NCBI GenBank assembly: GCA_947646015.1
Contig: CANSEY010000034.1
Location: 1-40,758 of the forward strand
DNA: 40,758 nt
Direction of reading: 5' to 3'
Source: an uncultured Bacteroides sp.
GTDB lineage: Bacteria > Bacteroidota > Bacteroidia > Bacteroidales > Bacteroidaceae
Below the pieces are notes generated by a model, which saw nothing but the letters and a program-made list of their open reading frames with translations, was not told where the DNA came from and made no database searches. Position 1 is the stretch's first letter. Every line of letters starts with the position of its first letter. The translations under genes were made by a program, and so were the position numbers. This document shows, piece after piece, positions 7,145-40,758 of the stretch.

Positions 7145-9559
7145 TTAGTGCTTGACCCCTTCAAATAAATCGCGGTTGTCTCGTGAACTCTGTGAATTAC
7201 GCTTGAAGTCATTGAATGTATAGCTGATAGTCAACGTAATTACAGGGAATTTCGGTTGAATCCGTGTGATCGATTGTAAATTGGCTGTCTCAATGTCACT
7301 TCTGTAACGGGCAGAATTGAATATATCCCGAAAGGAGAGGGTCGATTGCAGATGAGGACTGAACAACTGCTGACGAATAGCCAGATTGACAAACCAAAAA
7401 GAATCCGACCTCCCTTGTGTAGTAACCGAAGGACCTACGAAATTCCCGTCCAGCTGAATACGGGTATTCTTATGAACCCGAAAAAGGTTATTGACTGTAA
7501 AGTCATAATTGGTACTCGTTTCCTTTTTTCCTCCCGAATTTATATTATTCATTACCTTATAATAGTAAATATTTCCGTTGACGTCCAGATTCCACCATTT
7601 AGTGACTTTCAATTGGGTACTTAGCTCCACGCCTAACGAATAGTCATTGCCCACGTTAGCCATGGAGTCTAATGTAACTCCTGCCTCGTACGGAACACGC
7701 AAGCGTTCAATCTTGTCTTTACGTTTTCTGTAGAACAGGCTGGATTGCAAAGTGTGCTCTCCCATCGTCTTTTTGTAATTCAGCTCGAAAGAATGTATGT
7801 ATTCGGGCCGGATATCCGGATTGCCAATTTCAGCTGTGTAATAATCGCGATAAGTAATGTAAGGCTCCATAAAAAAGAGTTCCGGACGGTTGGTGCGGTA
7901 CGAATAGGCGAATGTCAGCTTCTGTTCGTGCGGCAGCGTGTATCCCAGATGTACGGATGGGAACACCTCAAAACGATTCACCGTGCGGTCCGAACCTTCA
8001 ATAGAGCTTCGCAGCACCTGGTGTGTATGTTCACCTCTCACCCCTATCTGTACGTCAAATGCTTTATAACTGTCACTTCCCATGACATAAACGGAATGAA
8101 TACCCCGCTGAAAATAGAAAGTGTTATAGATATCCTCCCGCCAATAAAATTCCTTTTTCTCCGGATTCCAGAATTGCATCGTGTAATCTCCGTCTTCCAG
8201 ATACGAATGATATTGATACCCGCTTTCCAGCAGACCGGTCTTGCTATACGGATAGCTGTAGGACAGATTGCCTTGGACTGTCCAGCGTTTTTCGTCTTCC
8301 CACGCACGGTGTCCCTGCTGGCGTTGTTCGTTCTTGTCGAAAAGGTCACTCTGGAAATATTCAAGGGGATTGTCTTCATAACCCAGCATAAAACTGCCGG
8401 TTAGGGTATGCCCGTTGTCGTTAAACTTATGGGAGAATCCTGCTTTTCCGATATTGACCGTCGAATGCAGGTCATATTTGTCTCGGCTAAAATAGTTGGA
8501 TGGGGCGGATGCTGCGTCGGAATTGGAATGTGTCTCTGTATAATCGAGGTCCCCTTCGCGGGTAAACTTGTCATATACCACCTGTAATTCTGCATTGACG
8601 GAGGTTTTGGGAGTAAAAGCGTAATCAATGCCTCCCCGCAGCCCATAGTGATAATTCTTTCCGATTCGCGGACCGTCGGACAGGGAGGTGGTGGTTTTGT
8701 CCCCAACAACAGTCGTCTTCCTTTGTTCGAAATCGCTCTTACGGATGGGATTGTTCCAGTGCCCGGCAAGGTGCCACTGTAACTTCTTGTGTTGTTGGGA
8801 CAACAGGAAATCCAGACCGTTGGAGAGAGCCGTGCTGCCATACGCATTGACTATACCGTTGATACCCGCCTGTTTGTTTTTCTTGGTGATGATGTTAATC
8901 ATTCCCACTTCTCCGTCCGTATCATAGCGTGCCGAAGGCGTAGTAATGATTTCTATGTTCTCTATCTGGGTGGAAGGAATCTGTTGCAGGGCCTGCGAAC
9001 CGGAATAAAAGCTGGGCTTCCCGTCGATATATACCTTAAATCCGCTGCTTCCGCGAAAGGTAACTTCACCATCCACATCTACCCGTACGGAGGGGGTATT
9101 TTCCAGAATATCGACTGCCGTTCCGCCGCTGCTCATGAGATTGTTCGAAGCGTCTATAATCTTTTTGTCCAGCTTGTAGATGACTTGCCTTTTGGCTGCC
9201 TGCACCACTACTTCGGCTATACCTACTTCCAAAGGTTGCAGTTCGATAACACCTAAGTCCGTCACTGATTCGGAAGAGGTAATACTAATGGCGCCTTGTG
9301 TGTAGATGTCATAGCCGATCAGTCTCACCATTAACGAGTATTCTCCTTTGGCAATACCCGATAAGTGGAAGTCGCCATTCTCTTTAGTATGGGTAAATGA
9401 AGCGGGATCGGCTTCGCCTTTTTTCGTTAGTACGACATCGGCAAACTCTATCGGGTTGCCTGTACCTTTCTCCTGTACTTTTCCTTTGATCTGTACGGGA
9501 ACCGCCATGAGGCAGTTGAAACTAAACATAAAAAGAATGAGAATAATTGTAGTTTTCAT
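7145..9559 (-). CDS. TonB-dependent receptor-like outer-membrane barrel (OMP_b-brl_3 type) with CarboxypepD_reg-like domain
   Basis: This 804-residue protein starts with a signal peptide (MKTTIILILFMFSFNCLMA). Residues about 22-110 form the beta-sandwich found at the front of Bacteroidota TonB receptors (IKGKVQEKGTGNPIEFADVVL). A plug-like region follows (GGTAVDILENTPSVRVDVDG, then STQIENIEIITTPSARYDTDG), and the rest is a large beta-barrel. It is shorter than SusC proteins, lacks a SusD partner, and belongs with the outer-membrane beta-barrel family often linked to metal or peptide uptake. The ligand is unknown. It is a single gene with a promoter at 9588. The ORF is complete. Confidence 0.88.
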   Translation of the reverse strand: MKTTIILILFMFSFNCLMAVPVQIKGKVQEKGTGNPIEFADVVLTKKGEADPASFTHTKENGDFHLSGIAKGEYSLMVRLIGYDIYTQGAISITSSESVTDLGVIELQPLEVGIAEVVVQAAKRQVIYKLDKKIIDASNNLMSSGGTAVDILENTPSVRVDVDGEVTFRGSSGFKVYIDGKPSFYSGSQALQQIPSTQIENIEIITTPSARYDTDGEVGMINIITKKNKQAGINGIVNAYGSTALSNGLDFLLSQQHKKLQWHLAGHWNNPIRKSDFEQRKTTVVGDKTTTSLSDGPRIGKNYHYGLRGGIDYAFTPKTSVNAELQVVYDKFTREGDLDYTETHSNSDAASAPSNYFSRDKYDLHSTVNIGKAGFSHKFNDNGHTLTGSFMLGYEDNPLEYFQSDLFDKNEQRQQGHRAWEDEKRWTVQGNLSYSYPYSKTGLLESGYQYHSYLEDGDYTMQFWNPEKKEFYWREDIYNTFYFQRGIHSVYVMGSDSYKAFDVQIGVRGEHTHQVLRSSIEGSDRTVNRFEVFPSVHLGYTLPHEQKLTFAYSYRTNRPELFFMEPYITYRDYYTAEIGNPDIRPEYIHSFELNYKKTMGEHTLQSSLFYRKRKDKIERLRVPYEAGVTLDSMANVGNDYSLGVELSTQLKVTKWWNLDVNGNIYYYKVMNNINSGGKKETSTNYDFTVNNLFRVHKNTRIQLDGNFVGPSVTTQGRSDSFWFVNLAIRQQLFSPHLQSTLSFRDIFNSARYRSDIETANLQSITRIQPKFPVITLTISYTFNDFKRNSQSSRDNRDLFEGVKH

Positions 9560-34999: not shown

Positions 35000-35071
35000 T
35001 TACCTTATGTAATGATACAGTTTGGTCTAGAACAATAGATACTGTAATTTGTGACTGAAAATTTGATAATT

Positions 35072-36469
35072 ATGAACATTGGCGATAGTGATATTCTATA
35101 TTCTTTTGATAGAGCCCGTCTAATTGACAGAGCTTGCAATGGATTCATGAGAATAGACGGGCTTACCTTTAAACGAGCTAGAGATTATATGGACAAATAT
35201 AGTGCTCGTGATTATTTGATGCAATGTCCACTTGACCTTTCAACGAAAGAATTGGTCAGTGGGATGAAAGATTATTGCCTGCAGCGTAGAGCCGAAATGC
35301 TCGAACCTTATCGAAAAAAAAGATATTCAATTAATGGTGATCCCATACATCATCTTTATATTATAGGTAATGGATTTGACAGATATCATGGTGCTGATTC
35401 TACATATATGGATTTTCGCAGCTACCTATTAAAGCACAATGATTTTGTCGTGAAGATGTTCGAACTCTTCTTCGGTCCCCGATCTATGATGAATAATTTT
35501 GATGATTATAATGATTATCTTTTGTGCCTACAATACGGACGCAAATTGCCAGCTCCAAAGAACACTTGGGCTAAGGACTATTTATGGAAGGATTTTGAAA
35601 AATATCTTAGTGAACTGAACAGGGAACGTATTTTTGATTTTGTTGATGAGAATTTGCCGCGATTATACGAAGATGACGAGAATTTTAGTTATGCTGAATA
35701 TTTAGGTCCTATAGATATTGTTGCTGATGTTGTTTCTTCTTGTACCTTCGAAATACAATATCTGTTTCACCGATGGATTAATACAATACATTACAAGAAA
35801 GGATTTAGGAAGAATATGCTGTATCTTGATCCGAACGCTGCTTACCTGAATTTTAATTATACATTGTTTCTTGAAACAGAATATAATATTTCCCGGGAAC
35901 ATATTTTTTATATTCACGGCGATAGAAGGCAGAAGTTTGGCTCTTTGGTTTTAGGGCATAATGTAGAGGATAATGAAGTCGCTTTTGATGAGTGGGTTCA
36001 TAAACATAAAAATCGTCGGAGATATCGCCCGAATCTGAAGGATAAGAAGGGTAAATATTTTGCCAATGATAAGTTGGTCTATCTCGCTTTCTTTTTAAAG
36101 GATATGAAAAAAGGGAATTGGAAAAATCCAATAAGGTATTATGCTGTAGATCATATTGAGGAGCGTTTGGAAAATTATTATGCGAAGAACATAAAACATT
36201 CTAATGACATAATAGATCATAACTTGGGCTTTTTTGAATCACTGAATGATTTGAAAGAGATTACATTGCTTGGTCATTCGCTGGGTGATGTAGACTTTCC
36301 ATATTTTAAGGCAATTGTTGAAAATGTAAGAAATGTGGATGATCTGATTTGGAATTTTAGTTATTATAGTGATAATGATATTAAAAATATCAGAAGATTT
36401 TGCAGACATCTGAATATTCCCCAAGGAAAAAATGTCCGGCATTTTAAGATGTCTGATATAAAGCGGTAG
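35072..36469 (+). CDS. abiH: AbiH-family abortive infection protein with N-terminal extension
   Basis: A 465-residue protein. From residue 95 it matches the AbiH phage-resistance family: HLYIIGNGFDRYHG at about 94-107, the YMDFRSYL that follows it, AYLNFNYTLFLETEY, IFYIHGDRR, GSLVLGHNVED and LLGHSLGDVDFPYF near residue 410. In Lactococcus AbiH blocks phage multiplication by an unknown mechanism, and the GNGFD and GH motifs suggest a nucleotide-binding pocket. Most AbiH proteins begin at the GNGFD motif; here about 93 residues precede it, rich in Arg, Asp and Tyr (LTFKRARDYMDKYSARDYLM), of unknown fold. A GTG seven codons earlier is an alternative start. It lies next to twin XRE genes and repeat arrays in AT-rich DNA. 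Confidence 0.82.
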   Translation: MNIGDSDILYSFDRARLIDRACNGFMRIDGLTFKRARDYMDKYSARDYLMQCPLDLSTKELVSGMKDYCLQRRAEMLEPYRKKRYSINGDPIHHLYIIGNGFDRYHGADSTYMDFRSYLLKHNDFVVKMFELFFGPRSMMNNFDDYNDYLLCLQYGRKLPAPKNTWAKDYLWKDFEKYLSELNRERIFDFVDENLPRLYEDDENFSYAEYLGPIDIVADVVSSCTFEIQYLFHRWINTIHYKKGFRKNMLYLDPNAAYLNFNYTLFLETEYNISREHIFYIHGDRRQKFGSLVLGHNVEDNEVAFDEWVHKHKNRRRYRPNLKDKKGKYFANDKLVYLAFFLKDMKKGNWKNPIRYYAVDHIEERLENYYAKNIKHSNDIIDHNLGFFESLNDLKEITLLGHSLGDVDFPYFKAIVENVRNVDDLIWNFSYYSDNDIKNIRRFCRHLNIPQGKNVRHFKMSDIKR

Positions 36470-37149: not shown

Positions 37150-37950
37150 TTATTTTGTATAAATGATAGTAGTCTCATTATCGAGTGGCAATGATAAAAA
37201 GAAATTTGGAGTACTACCTGATAACTTTTTCACTTCTTTTGATAAATGAGACGCATCATAATATCCGGCTTTTACTGCTACTGATAAAAGGTTGTCGAAT
37301 GATTCGTTCCTCAATATTTTAATCGCATTCTTGAATTTTACTATACTATTATATTTTTGAGGAGTGAAACCTGTATGTAACTTGAATTTTCGTTCAAAAT
37401 GTCGCTGGCAAAGATTAACTTCGTTCATTAAATGGCTTATGGATATCTTGCCTTTATGCGCATTTATTTGATTCACAGCATATGCGATTTGTGCATCCAT
37501 TGTATGGCTGCTTTTATATAGGTGTTCTTTCAGATAGCGTTCTATTAAATTAATCTTGCACTGAATACCCTGTTCTTCGAATAACCTTTCAGCAAAAGAA
37601 TCGCTGAAAATAGTATCTAAGTCGCTTACACTTAATCTTATATTTGTAAATTCACTTAGAGAAATTTTTATAAAACGGGATAACCCGCATGGACGAAAGC
37701 GAACTCCAAATGTATTGATAGTACCTGATGATGTTATTAATGTCGAACAGACGTTCATGGGACCAATAAAATAAGAATGATAAGGTTGCATCATAATGCC
37801 ATGATTAACAGTGGTTTCTAATATGAACATAAAGTCCGTACATCCATCTGTAGATAATTTTATTTGCATACCTTGTTCTGTTTGGCCTTTGAATTCCCAA
37901 TATCTATCAACATAAGGAGCAAGTATATGGCATGGTAAGTATTCTTTGTA
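37150..37950 (-). CDS. AraC-family transcription regulator
   Basis: A 266-residue regulator. The N-terminal half (about 1-130: YKEYLPCHILAPYVDRYWEF, CGLSRFIKISLSEF) is the sensory domain common in Bacteroidota AraC proteins (DUF6597-like). The C-terminal AraC helix-turn-helix pair covers about 165-260 (ISISHLMNEVNLCQRHFERKFKLHTGFTPQKY, LLSVAVKAGYYDASHLSKEVKKLSG). An ATG six codons upstream (37968) is also in frame. The 5' end overlaps the TPR gene by 44 bases, so translation may be coupled. The membrane protein downstream is a candidate target. Confidence 0.85.
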   Translation of the reverse strand, partial: YKEYLPCHILAPYVDRYWEFKGQTEQGMQIKLSTDGCTDFMFILETTVNHGIMMQPYHSYFIGPMNVCSTLITSSGTINTFGVRFRPCGLSRFIKISLSEFTNIRLSVSDLDTIFSDSFAERLFEEQGIQCKINLIERYLKEHLYKSSHTMDAQIAYAVNQINAHKGKISISHLMNEVNLCQRHFERKFKLHTGFTPQKYNSIVKFKNAIKILRNESFDNLLSVAVKAGYYDASHLSKEVKKLSGSTPNFFLSLPLDNETTIIYTK

Positions 37951-38503
37951 CATATTTAGAAAGGGCATTTGTTATTTCTATAAATCTCTCAAAATCCTTT
38001 TTACTTCCTAATAAGTCTACATTGTATTCTTTTTTGGCTATTCCTCTATTGAAATATGCATTTGCATAATTGGGATCAAGCTTAATGGCTTTATTGTAAT
38101 ATTTGATAGCTTGACAATACTTCTTCATTGCCCTTAAAACAGATCCTTTTATAGTATAAGCGTTTGCTAGATAATCAGGATTTTGATTAATAACTCTATC
38201 ATAATCTTCTATTGCTTTTGTATATTCTTTCTTGCCAATTAAGGCAAAGGCTCTATTGAAGTAAGCTAATGTGTAATTTTGATTAATTTCAATAGCTTTG
38301 TTATAATCAATGATTGCATTGTCATAATCTTTTTGCTCATATCTTGCATTTCCCCTCCAAATGTATAATTCGGCAATTGCATCTTTCTCTGCTATCGCAC
38401 TCATATCCTCTTCTGAAAGTAATTCAATGATTTCTTTAAACTTTTCCTTACTAAAAAGATCTTCAATTTCTTTAAAAATCTCATTTGTATTTATTATTTT
38501 CAT
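37907..38503 (-). CDS. TPR-repeat protein
   Basis: A 198-residue soluble protein with about four tetratricopeptide repeats after a short N-terminal region: AELYIWRGNARYEQKDYDNAI, TLAYFNRAFALIGKKEYTKAI, ANAYTIKGSVLRAMKKYCQAI and ANAYFNRGIAKKEY. TPR domains mediate protein-protein contacts. An ATG nine codons upstream (38530) is possible. The last 12 codons are read from the AraC gene's 5' region in another frame and do not look TPR-like, so the original end may have been lost at a junction. It lies 108 bases after the radical SAM gene on the same strand; involvement in the peptide locus is possible but unproven. Confidence 0.82.
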   Translation of the reverse strand: MKIINTNEIFKEIEDLFSKEKFKEIIELLSEEDMSAIAEKDAIAELYIWRGNARYEQKDYDNAIIDYNKAIEINQNYTLAYFNRAFALIGKKEYTKAIEDYDRVINQNPDYLANAYTIKGSVLRAMKKYCQAIKYYNKAIKLDPNYANAYFNRGIAKKEYNVDLLGSKKDFERFIEITNALSKYVQRILTMPYTCSLC

Positions 38504-38610
38504 TGTAATATTGGGGAAGTAATTAAACAATATGCTTTTTCACAGTATTTAAATGGTACAAAATAAACTATTTAAAATACGTTTTTTATATAGCTCAATA
38601 AGCAAAATGA

Positions 38611-40080
38611 TTAGATTTTATTTTTCCATTCAATTACTAATTCTTTGTTTATTTTTGCAATGTTACAAAAATACTCATTAACAGCCAGTGGATCTCCCAA
38701 AGGACTCTCATTGGCATTTCTTACCATACACATGGTGCAGTATTCTTTATCGGTACAGTGAATGCATTTAGGGAAATCACATTTGCGTAAATCTCTTAAA
38801 AACCGCACCTTTTCAGAATTTTCCCAAATATTGTAAAGAGGACTTTTTTTTATATTTCCAACAATATAATCTTGCCAGCCAGCACACGGATATACATTGC
38901 CATTTTCAGCTATACAAATAGATGAATTGCAAACGCTACAAACAAAATCATTAGGCTCTATGTGTTTTTTCTTTTCAGCTTCAACTTCCAATTGCTCCAA
39001 GTAATTTGCATTATTAGTAGCTTTGCTGTAGATCAAGTCTTTTACTTCCTCAATAGATAGGCGGCAATTCAAGTTATTTATTGTATGATTATATCTTGCT
39101 ATGATGACATAATCATCTCCAACTTGAATTTTATGATTCTCTGCCCATTTTACAACATCGTCATAACAATCTTTATTTTGTTTCATTATTGGACAACTTA
39201 TTTGCAGAGGGATATCATTTTCAATTAGTTTTAAAATTGCATTTTTTGTTTTTTCGAAACTACCTTTCATTTGGGTTATCTCATCGTGAATTTTGGGATT
39301 CATAGAATATAATGAGACTTGAATACCTAAAAGAGGATTTGCTTTCATCTCTTTGAGAATATCATCATTAAGTAATGTTAAATTACTGAGGACATTTACT
39401 GAAAAATCATATTCCCTACATTTTCTAATGAAATCGCAAAAATTTTTATGCAACATTGGTTCACCGCCACTTAGGGTTAGGTGTAATAAATTCATATCCT
39501 TGCATTGCTGCAGAATATCGTAAAATAGAGCAGGATCGATATTGTTTATCTTGTTTTCATGGGGAATATAACAATGTATGCATCTTTCATTACACTTACT
39601 TGTAATTTCTATGTGTATGTTCGTAAGTTGCGGTTTGCCGTTAAAATGTTCTTCTAAAAAATCTTGAGTAGATTTTCGGGGTTGTAAAATAGGCAGAGAT
39701 GTCTCCTTACTTTTATAAGTAGGCTCTGACATCTTATAAGAAAATCTCGTGTCTTTTTCTTCGCACTCTAGATCTGTTTCACCAGAGACAATAAACCCAT
39801 CTTGTTCAAGTAAGCAATAAAAGTCTCTAGCATCCTCTTTGATTGTATTAATATCAATACCTATGAATTGCTTGGCTATTTTTTCTGCAAGTTCATCAAG
39901 AGTTTGTGGCTTTCTATCTAAGACAGAAAAGAAAACTGCCCCACTTTCTGATAGAATTTTGTCACCGATATGGTTTTTGTTATCATCGGTTCTTTTATAT
40001 CCGAAATTCCTATTGTCTGTTATATAACCAAAAGAATTATAGTTTCTGAATATGATATTAGATTTTCTCTTTAAAAACAT
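38611..40080 (-). CDS. Radical SAM/SPASM peptide maturase with PqqD-like RiPP-recognition domain
   Basis: A 489-residue enzyme. A PqqD-like RiPP-recognition segment covers about residues 38-97 (GDKILSESGAVFFSVLDRKP). The radical SAM core follows, with its iron-sulfur motif CNERCIHCY (C163, C167, C170) and SGGEP. The C-terminal SPASM domain has ten or so cysteines (CSVCNSSIC, CAGWQD, CDFPKCIHC, EYCTMC, FC) for auxiliary clusters. Such enzymes use S-adenosylmethionine radicals to crosslink or epimerise a precursor peptide. The frame opens at 40122, but that lies on the terminator hairpin, so the ATG at 40080 is preferred. The precursor is encoded directly upstream at 40142-40258. Confidence 0.9.
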   Translation of the reverse strand: MFLKRKSNIIFRNYNSFGYITDNRNFGYKRTDDNKNHIGDKILSESGAVFFSVLDRKPQTLDELAEKIAKQFIGIDINTIKEDARDFYCLLEQDGFIVSGETDLECEEKDTRFSYKMSEPTYKSKETSLPILQPRKSTQDFLEEHFNGKPQLTNIHIEITSKCNERCIHCYIPHENKINNIDPALFYDILQQCKDMNLLHLTLSGGEPMLHKNFCDFIRKCREYDFSVNVLSNLTLLNDDILKEMKANPLLGIQVSLYSMNPKIHDEITQMKGSFEKTKNAILKLIENDIPLQISCPIMKQNKDCYDDVVKWAENHKIQVGDDYVIIARYNHTINNLNCRLSIEEVKDLIYSKATNNANYLEQLEVEAEKKKHIEPNDFVCSVCNSSICIAENGNVYPCAGWQDYIVGNIKKSPLYNIWENSEKVRFLRDLRKCDFPKCIHCTDKEYCTMCMVRNANESPLGDPLAVNEYFCNIAKINKELVIEWKNKI

Positions 40081-40092
40081 AATATGTATTGT

Positions 40093-40131
40093 TAAAAAAT
40101 CAGGCGATGTGTGTTGTACCACCGCCTGATT
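40093..40131 (-). terminator. Hairpin with T-tract between precursor and maturase, probable attenuator
   Basis: On the minus strand AATCAGGCG pairs with CGCCTGATT, followed by TTTTT. It would stop most transcripts after the precursor, letting a minority continue into the maturase, a common way to make more precursor than enzyme. Confidence 0.75.
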
Positions 40132-40141
40132 AAGTTGTTAA

Positions 40142-40258
40142 TTAACGTCCACCTGGTTTGGGTGGATTACAAGGTCTTCCACTCGGCTTACTATTGGGAC
40201 GACATTCTGCCATCTGTACAGTACTTTGCGCCAAGATTTCAGGTTTTTTGTAAATCAT
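40142..40258 (-). CDS. RiPP precursor peptide, 38 residues
   Basis: A short gene directly upstream of the radical SAM maturase. The leader is MIYKKPEILAQSTVQMAE, with the (Y)KKPEIL element common in Bacteroidota RiPP leaders. The core that follows has two cysteines and reads as two similar modules: CRPNSKPSGR and, after one Pro, CNPPKPGGR, each C-x(3-4)-K-P-[SG]-G-R. The two Cys are candidates for thioether crosslinks. A perfect AGGAGG Shine-Dalgarno (rare in Bacteroides) precedes the ATG, the promoter box is at 40305, and a terminator-like hairpin follows the stop. No exporter or protease is visible in the window. I infer a ranthipeptide-like product. Confidence 0.8.
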   Translation of the reverse strand: MIYKKPEILAQSTVQMAECRPNSKPSGRPCNPPKPGGR

Positions 40259-40260
40259 AT

Positions 40261-40272
40261 AACCTCCTTTTT
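40261..40272 (-). promoter_or_regulatory. Unusually strong Shine-Dalgarno (AAAAAGGAGGTT)
   Basis: Full anti-16S match four bases before the ATG at 40258. Bacteroides genes seldom carry one, so high translation of the precursor is implied. Confidence 0.85.
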
Positions 40273-40304
40273 AAAAGTTATTACTTTTGTTGTTAAGTAC
40301 AACA

Positions 40305-40312
40305 CAAAGGTA
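40305..40312 (-). promoter_or_regulatory. -7 box TACCTTTG of the RiPP operon
   Basis: TAnnTTTG match 47 bases upstream of the precursor ATG. An inverted repeat GTTGT/ACAAC (40288-40302) sits at the predicted transcript start. Confidence 0.6.
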
Positions 40313-40445
40313 TAAAACCAAATCTATTTCCCAAAGCTTTATTACTTATTTTTTTACTTGTTAGAATACAGAGATTTGATGCGAAAATTAATTGTCGGAG
40401 AAAAATGTTTTTTATTTAAAACAATTACTTTTAACTTTGCTATTT

Positions 40446-40706
40446 TGTAAGTCTCCGATAAAATCTCCGCTATCTTGTTGTTTTTTTTTACTCGATCTTT
40501 GTCTAGAAAGGGATTATACGAAAAATGAGCAAAGAAGAATTCTTAGAAATTCTATCTCGTCAACAACGTAGTGGCTTGACGATAAAAGGCTTCTGTGTTA
40601 ACGATACCTATACTGAATCGACTTTTTACTGTTGGAAAGGAAAGTTTGGACTCTCAACATCAAACTAGGCTCTAATGAAAAATATACTATAAACAGAAAA
40701 TTGCTA
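40446..40706 (+). mobile_element. IS66-type left end with truncated first gene
   Basis: Starts with TGTAAGTCTCCGATAAA, the form of IS66-family ends, and CTCGATCT at +45. It contains only a short tnpA-like gene (40525-40668) before a second IS66 end begins at 40707, so it is a decayed or interrupted copy. Confidence 0.65.
40525..40668 (+). pseudogene. Truncated IS66-family accessory protein TnpA
   Basis: A 47-residue frame (MSKEEFLEILSRQQRSGLTI, ending with FYCWKGKFGL) that matches the N-terminal helix-turn-helix of IS66 TnpA proteins, which are about 110-120 residues. It stops early at a TAG, and the tnpB and tnpC genes that should follow are absent. It lies 79 bases inside the element's left end. 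Confidence 0.7.
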
Positions 40707-40758
40707 TGTAAGCCCCCGATAAAGTACCCGTTGTCTTTGTATCTTTAAGTCTCGATCT
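40707..40758 (+). mobile_element. Left end of a second IS66-family element (partial)
   Basis: TGTAAGCCCCCGATAAA agrees with the first end at 24 of 31 positions over 31 bases, and CTCGATCT lies at +44 as in the first copy. The element continues beyond the window. Confidence 0.7.

Follow-up and report, generated by a model that had tools for sequence, protein, structure and literature searches.

We found that a radical SAM/SPASM maturase and the 38-codon gene in front of it form a conserved and mobile pair, which we read, with somewhat more confidence than doubt, as a two-gene radical-SAM RiPP that has no dedicated exporter and takes part in conflict among mobile elements, phages and hosts. The short gene is a conserved coding precursor that was linked one to one with the maturase in the sampled genomes, and the pair was the only cargo seen in two different Tn3-like transposons. 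The starting point was the window, by which we mean the whole stretch of DNA analysed (40758 nt from an uncultured Bacteroides sp.); it is one entire contig of its assembly, so that DNA past position 40758 is not visible.

Precursor and maturase genes in the window

The pair, its signals and the gene behind it were located as follows.

40142..40258, (-): precursor peptide gene, 38 aa plus stop; protein MIYKKPEILAQSTVQMAECRPNSKPSGRPCNPPKPGGR
40205-40258, (-): precursor leader, residues 1-18, with a putative boundary taken from the first Cys
40145-40204, (-): putative precursor core, residues 19-38, bounded in the same way by the first Cys
40263..40269, (-): precursor Shine-Dalgarno AAGGAGG, 5-11 nt before the ATG
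40305-40312, (-): Bacteroides-type -7 box TACCTTTG, with TTTG ~20 nt further up (about 40332-40335)
40093..40130, (-): hairpin and T-run between precursor and maturase (hairpin 40099-40130), from folding and covariation
38611..40080, (-): maturase, 489 aa, with PqqD (PF05402), Radical_SAM (PF04055) and SPASM (PF13186)
39790..39954, (-): RRE (PqqD-like) stretch of the maturase, residues 43-97 (PF05402, E 1.5e-5)
37907..38503, (-): TPR protein gene behind the maturase (Pfam TPR), an optional third gene

The sequence-only reading had proposed a short unannotated ORF of RiPP type, preceded by a full Shine-Dalgarno, upstream of a PqqD/radical SAM/SPASM enzyme. Both were confirmed: the ORF is present and conserved in frame as a RiPP-type precursor, and AAGGAGG stands at the spacing given above, with GGAGG found upstream of the precursor in 12 of 18 loci. 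A -7 box of its own had also been claimed for the precursor. The box, called with what we take to be the Bacteroides consensus, is in place in the window, but an exact TAnnTTTG recurred in only 3 of the 18 loci (the window, L004 and L008), and we rejected it as a conserved feature. The precursor matched no NCBIfam or Pfam model, and in the seven plasmid records that carry it the ORF had no gene entry, the gene table being incomplete.

All three maturase domains scored above the Pfam cut-offs, PqqD barely so (25.6 versus 23.4 bits). The cysteines of the radical SAM motif C-x3-C-x2-C (C163, C167 and C170) were invariant in 23 alignment rows, as were C381, C399, C439, C442, C448, C451 and C472, so that the protein has the Cys motif, the SPASM cysteines and the RRE by which an RRE-bearing radical SAM/SPASM peptide maturase is recognized. 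Scans against NCBIfam, Pfam and PADLOC gave similarity at the radical-SAM level only: the best NCBIfam match reached 103.5 of 500 bits, with the best 25 of 60 matches all under the cut-off, and the PADLOC scan of the maturase matched no known anti-phage defence system. An identity with pVip (viperin) was rejected, the match being restricted to the radical SAM barrel.

Of 21 distinct loci compared by tblastn, six had a relative of the TPR gene following the maturase. An AraC-type regulator (DUF6597, HTH_18; 37150-37968, (-)) overlaps the end of the TPR gene in the window, and the two may be on one transcript. On the other side of the pair, a short ORF (40525-40668, (+)), shortly past which the contig ends, is 42.5% identical over 40 aa to an ORF of locus L047 that precedes a gene set which we take to be IS66-like (no Pfam match).

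Conservation of the pair

Relatives of the maturase were collected from genome contigs (seven relatives), plasmids, genomes and viral contigs. The precursor was located upstream of the maturase and in the same orientation in all 20 loci with readable upstream DNA, a count that leaves out L010, which begins inside the maturase, and L024, which is on the same contig as L004. These loci came from Bacteroidota, a Deferribacteraceae MAG, E. coli, Salmonella and Photobacterium plasmids, a Mu-like phage and another viral contig, and in three further plasmid records the precursor precedes the maturase by coordinates. The starts of the two genes lay 170-194 nt apart in 18 of the 19 loci measured, with 383 nt for L030; the maturase start used for L028 was not ATG, which makes the spacing and fold of this locus approximate.

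The two genes also co-occurred at the level of genomes. Among 393 Bacteroidales genomes, the maturase (E <= 1e-120) was found in six and the precursor (E <= 0.001) in the same six, and in 395 genomes of the phylum strong matches to both were found in the same two. Precursor matches in G730 and G758 (E about 3e-4) contained internal stops and were taken as chance. In a family sample, 10 of 251 genomes had a maturase at E <= 1e-80, three of the window type and seven of a sister type; in a smaller family sample of 151 genomes, which may or may not have included the other two genomes of the window type (G191 and G164), one had the precursor. An E. coli plasmid copy had no near match among 5,426 complete E. 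coli genomes.

The peptides encoded by the E. coli and Photobacterium copies were identical, while 17 of 38 codons differed, with 17 synonymous and 0 non-synonymous changes. This synonymous-only divergence, together with the co-occurrence with the maturase in the same genomes, led us to reject a chance ORF. The expectations that had come with the sequence-only reading, that homologues of the precursor would be found beside related maturases and that the peptide would stay in frame, were thus borne out by the 20 loci and by the codon comparison. The genetic criterion for a RiPP is a short precursor gene tied to an enzyme that modifies peptides and carries a domain for binding the leader, and this is the arrangement found here.

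Composition of leader and core

Across the 17 distinct precursors from maturase-bearing loci, the core was 17-21 residues long, contained no acidic or aromatic residue and was nearly fixed across phyla. Two Cys were present in all 17, and a third was found in three precursors, all of the fully supported maturase subclade L016/L028/L031. Besides Pro and Gly, only Arg28 (in GRPC) occurred between two Cys in every precursor. Asp and Glu were missing from all 17 cores, Thr was found in one, Asn was present in 16 but never at the spacing NxxC, and His was confined to one subclade. Given a core without acidic or aromatic residues, crosslinks to Tyr/Trp and Asp/Glu in the product are unlikely. The leader motif K-P-x3-A was present in most precursor copies, and the double-Gly motif was absent before the core.

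The core had been described as two modules. Their two Cys in 17 of 17 precursors and the clear repeat in L029 (CSPKPSGR-P / CKPPGPGR), the clearest of the set, speak for such a design, but the second module drifts and the three precursors with a third Cys depart from it, so that the description holds only in part. A crosslink at the Cys of each module and the resulting two-ring product, as put forward in the sequence-only reading, are hypothetical.

Hairpin between the two genes

The intergenic DNA of the window folds into a hairpin with an MFE of -19.0 and a z of -7.2. Over 18 loci the mean z was -4.8 and 17 were at -2.3 or lower; only L030, with additional intergenic DNA, lay above that value. 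In an alignment of 13 rows (without L007, L030, L011 and L013, and with L012, L014 and L031 dropped as misplaced by MAFFT), 93.4% of the cells pair and 8 of 13 pairs were changed on both sides against a shuffle mean of 3.4; 0 of 500 shuffles were as high in either measure. Four of the measures exceeded the shuffles; the remaining one, further pair types, did not (204 of 500 shuffles reached its value).

When a T-run behind the hairpin was strictly required, 10 of 19 loci qualified, two having weak stems, and a terminator role is accordingly clear in just some loci. The maturase had been called attenuated. The hairpin behind that claim is real and has compensatory changes, but with its T-run it recurs in only the 10 of 19 loci, and attenuation may be one reading of it; a hairpin protecting the end of the precursor mRNA would serve as well.

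Mobility of the pair on transposons, plasmids and a phage

The E. coli plasmid locus L012 has 49-nt inverted repeats (94%) flanked by a TTATA duplication, and between the repeats lie the pair, a Tn3 transposase and a resolvase, which gives all the marks of a Tn3 element (terminal repeats, 5-bp duplication, Tn3 transposase and resolvase). The element in the Photobacterium plasmid locus L014 is bounded by 55-nt repeats (89%), flanked on the outside by TATAT, and contains the pair together with a resolvase and a Tn3-like transposase in two ORFs; here the repeats, duplication and resolvase are in place, whereas the transposase ORF gives DUF4158 only and appears split. No further ORF of 90 aa or more was listed inside either element. 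The transposases of the two elements are 23% identical and the resolvases 28%, while the block of precursor and maturase has 77.5% DNA identity over 1691 bp and was the sole blastn match between them, which marks the pair alone as the unit. Behind the maturase of L012, the stretch 7600-7950 resembles by eye a partial, decayed duplicate of the resolvase gene next to it.

When the window was compared by blastn with nine further loci, the matches started at 40273-40357 and ended at 38605-38641 (in two pieces for L030), and the TPR gene was matched as well in three of the nine. Genes for Mor, holin, endolysin and terminase identify L030 as a Mu-like phage. Its maturase stretch has 32-38% GC and the surrounding DNA mostly 63-72%. 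In the maturase tree, the L030 phage copy and the Deferribacteraceae copy were placed inside an 11-row group that is otherwise Bacteroidota (93/98), their exact places having weak support.

Precursor-like ORFs on viral contigs without a family maturase

When viral contigs were scanned with the precursor alignment, six had a precursor-like ORF, at the following positions.

L061, 5001-5117: precursor-like ORF
L063 and L064, 4998-5111: precursor-like ORF
L065 and L067, 5001-5117: precursor-like ORF
L066, 3323-3439: precursor-like ORF

All six lacked a family maturase when searched over their whole length; they may be fragments, so that this absence holds for the contig and not for the phage. They belong to three unrelated phage lineages, namely L061 (DnaB-like helicase, Sak4, primase and PolA), L063/L064 (prohead protease) and L065/L066/L067 (DUF6712 and HslV-like peptidase). 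In the 16-18-kb stretches compared, no common protein was found at E 1e-4, barring one 21% match between two. The cores of these copies are CRPNSRPSGRPCNPPKPGGV, CRPVSIPSGSPCNPPKPAGR (the end of a longer ORF) and CITPSRPSGRPCNPPTPSGR. Arg28 is lost in L063/L064, the C-terminal Arg is lost in L061, and positions 20-22 are altered in L065-L067. The DNA behind the phage copies folds more weakly (-10.7, -2.6 and -4.6) than at the bacterial loci.

Taken over all eight precursor-bearing viral contigs, the family maturase was absent from six, whereas no genome with a strong precursor match in the samples of 393 Bacteroidales and 395 phylum genomes lacked it. The other two, the phage L030 and the viral contig L031, carry the whole pair, and viral carriage alone does not therefore imply counter-defence.

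Several other viral searches were made. A scan with the Photobacterium maturase gave no match among the viral contigs, and the precursor had none at E <= 10 among 50,697 named phages. The L065 peptide matched named phages at E 6 or more among the matches listed, which we put down to chance, and a core-pattern match in L092 was rejected as it has a stop directly after the motif and no leader. On the 94-kb contig among the six with a precursor copy, the maturase search gave only a weak match (E 1e-3), to a 290-aa radical SAM protein of another kind (L070, 985-1857, (-)) ~17 kb from the precursor copy.

Proposed function and alternative explanations

Judged from the sequences, the precursor is very likely modified by the maturase. 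Going by the class of the enzyme, the RRE would bind the leader and the radical SAM cluster would remove a hydrogen atom from the core; formation of the new bond would be aided by the SPASM clusters. Modification of the Cys/Pro/Gly/Arg core would most likely link Cys thiols to carbons of other residues, and Cys is reasonably probable as the crosslink donor. The hairpin between the genes could leave precursor mRNA in excess of maturase mRNA. Because the shared unit contains no exporter, protease or immunity gene, the product probably acts in the cell that makes it or is released by general routes; for intracellular action taken by itself, we see the chances as evenly poised.

Since the pair is located on transposons and conjugative plasmids as well as in a phage, and phages of unrelated lineages carry the precursor only, a role in the conflict of mobile elements, phages and hosts appears the most likely one, and we hold it tentatively, at a little under an even chance. 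The phage copies might be altered substrates competing for the host maturase or might simply use it; that they are decoys is conceivable but on the unlikely side. A stricter version, in which the pair is a two-gene immunity cassette against phages or mobile elements, spread by transposons, plasmids and phages and with the modified intracellular peptide as its effector, and in which the precursor gene on its own was taken up by phages on at least three occasions, its core being changed to yield decoys that occupy the host maturase, is rather unlikely. Defence-like proteins were noted near several loci, all picked by eye and without a control: AbiE, LmuB-like and TIR proteins and a methyltransferase outside the window and, in the window, an AbiH-like gene (35051-36469, (+); PADLOC E 4e-25) 2.1 kb from the maturase.

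We consider it doubtful that the product is instead a secreted bacteriocin or signalling RiPP that relies on unlinked host proteases and exporters, with mobility spreading a competitive trait and the phage copies feeding the host maturase to the benefit of the lysogen. Most radical SAM RiPPs of known activity are antimicrobial or growth-inhibiting according to the available text of PMC8326336 and PMC13361665, and bacteriocins are mobile too in that of PMC12715929, but the shared block contains no exporter, peptidase or immunity gene, stops at the maturase in the Tn3 elements and ends near it in the nine loci compared with the window, and no double-Gly motif precedes the core. The lack of a dedicated exporter would suit a cofactor-like or metal-binding peptide for host metabolism (cf. 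PQQ and chalkophores), as would two Cys able to bind a metal and a core nearly fixed across phyla, as a cofactor would be. Such a peptide is nevertheless improbable: the ORF lists show no shared oxidoreductase or further maturation gene, the family is rare and scattered (6 of 393 Bacteroidales genomes, and a plasmid copy unmatched in the 5,426 complete E. coli genomes), and phage copies of the precursor would be hard to explain.

These phage copies, alone and with neither a maturase nor a comparable hairpin behind them, also argue against a regulatory leader peptide, by which ribosomes stalling at the Pro-rich end would act with the hairpin to attenuate the maturase, which would have a different substrate. 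A short Pro-rich ORF, a covarying hairpin and then a gene is indeed the layout of attenuation. Leader and core are, however, kept as protein beyond the Pro codons, the maturase is of the RRE-fused peptide-modifying type in a block without another shared small gene, and the T-run is missing in many loci, which together make this account highly improbable. Under the favoured reading of a mobile RiPP in conflict, phage copies of the precursor that lack the maturase, if they are confirmed, would offer evidence of a new type for a RiPP in phage-host conflict and would make that role testable; at ~1.7 kb, the pair is small enough for a direct test in E. coli.

Comparison with known systems

SkfB was the best match of the maturase among solved structures (E 4.1e-16), which does not decide a sactipeptide class. 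The pair shares with SkfB and AlbA the layout of RRE, radical SAM and SPASM/twitch domains and a Cys-containing substrate. It differs in being much smaller and without exporter genes, in a Pro/Gly/Arg core where the substrate cores of SkfB and AlbA are hydrophobic and Cys-containing, and in maturase scores far under the NCBIfam cut-offs (AlbA 48.5 of 850 bits and SkfB 57.8 of 300 bits). Compared with the ranthipeptide maturases, the score on the PapB model was 55.1 of 340 bits. PapB, CteB and NxxcB are described in the available text of PMC8326336 as SPASM enzymes that join Cys to non-alpha carbons. The acceptor residues of the known thioether classes are not conserved in the 17 cores, none of these residues being universal in the family.

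The streptococcal RaS-RiPP subfamilies (GRC, KGR, NxxC and others) are small radical SAM RiPPs, named by core motif in the available portion of PMC13361665. Arg and Cys of the GRC and KGR motifs are also present in the core here. The GRC product is reported there with a thiolactone and didehydrohistidine, whereas Glu is absent from the core of this family and His is confined to one subclade. The openly licensed PMC literature contained no description of the precursor core motifs, one match being unrelated, and the available passages of surveys of Bacteroidales RiPPs (PMC10352776) and SPASM enzymes (PMC9062424) held nothing matching the pair. Lanthipeptide clusters near defence genes are reported in excerpts of PMC12715929, which cite a study with radical-SAM clusters.

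A further comparison is with the sister clade L017-L023, whose maturases are 38-42% identical, similar in length and placed in a separate clade (100/100). A distinct small ORF with GSYAAGCP was observed near the sister maturases in 7 of 7 loci, and no paper on this motif was found in the openly licensed PMC literature. The small ORF has a similar leader start (of the K-x(4-6)-A-K-N type) and two or more Cys, but a different core. Set beside these systems, the pair is a real and apparently undescribed mobile radical-SAM RiPP family.
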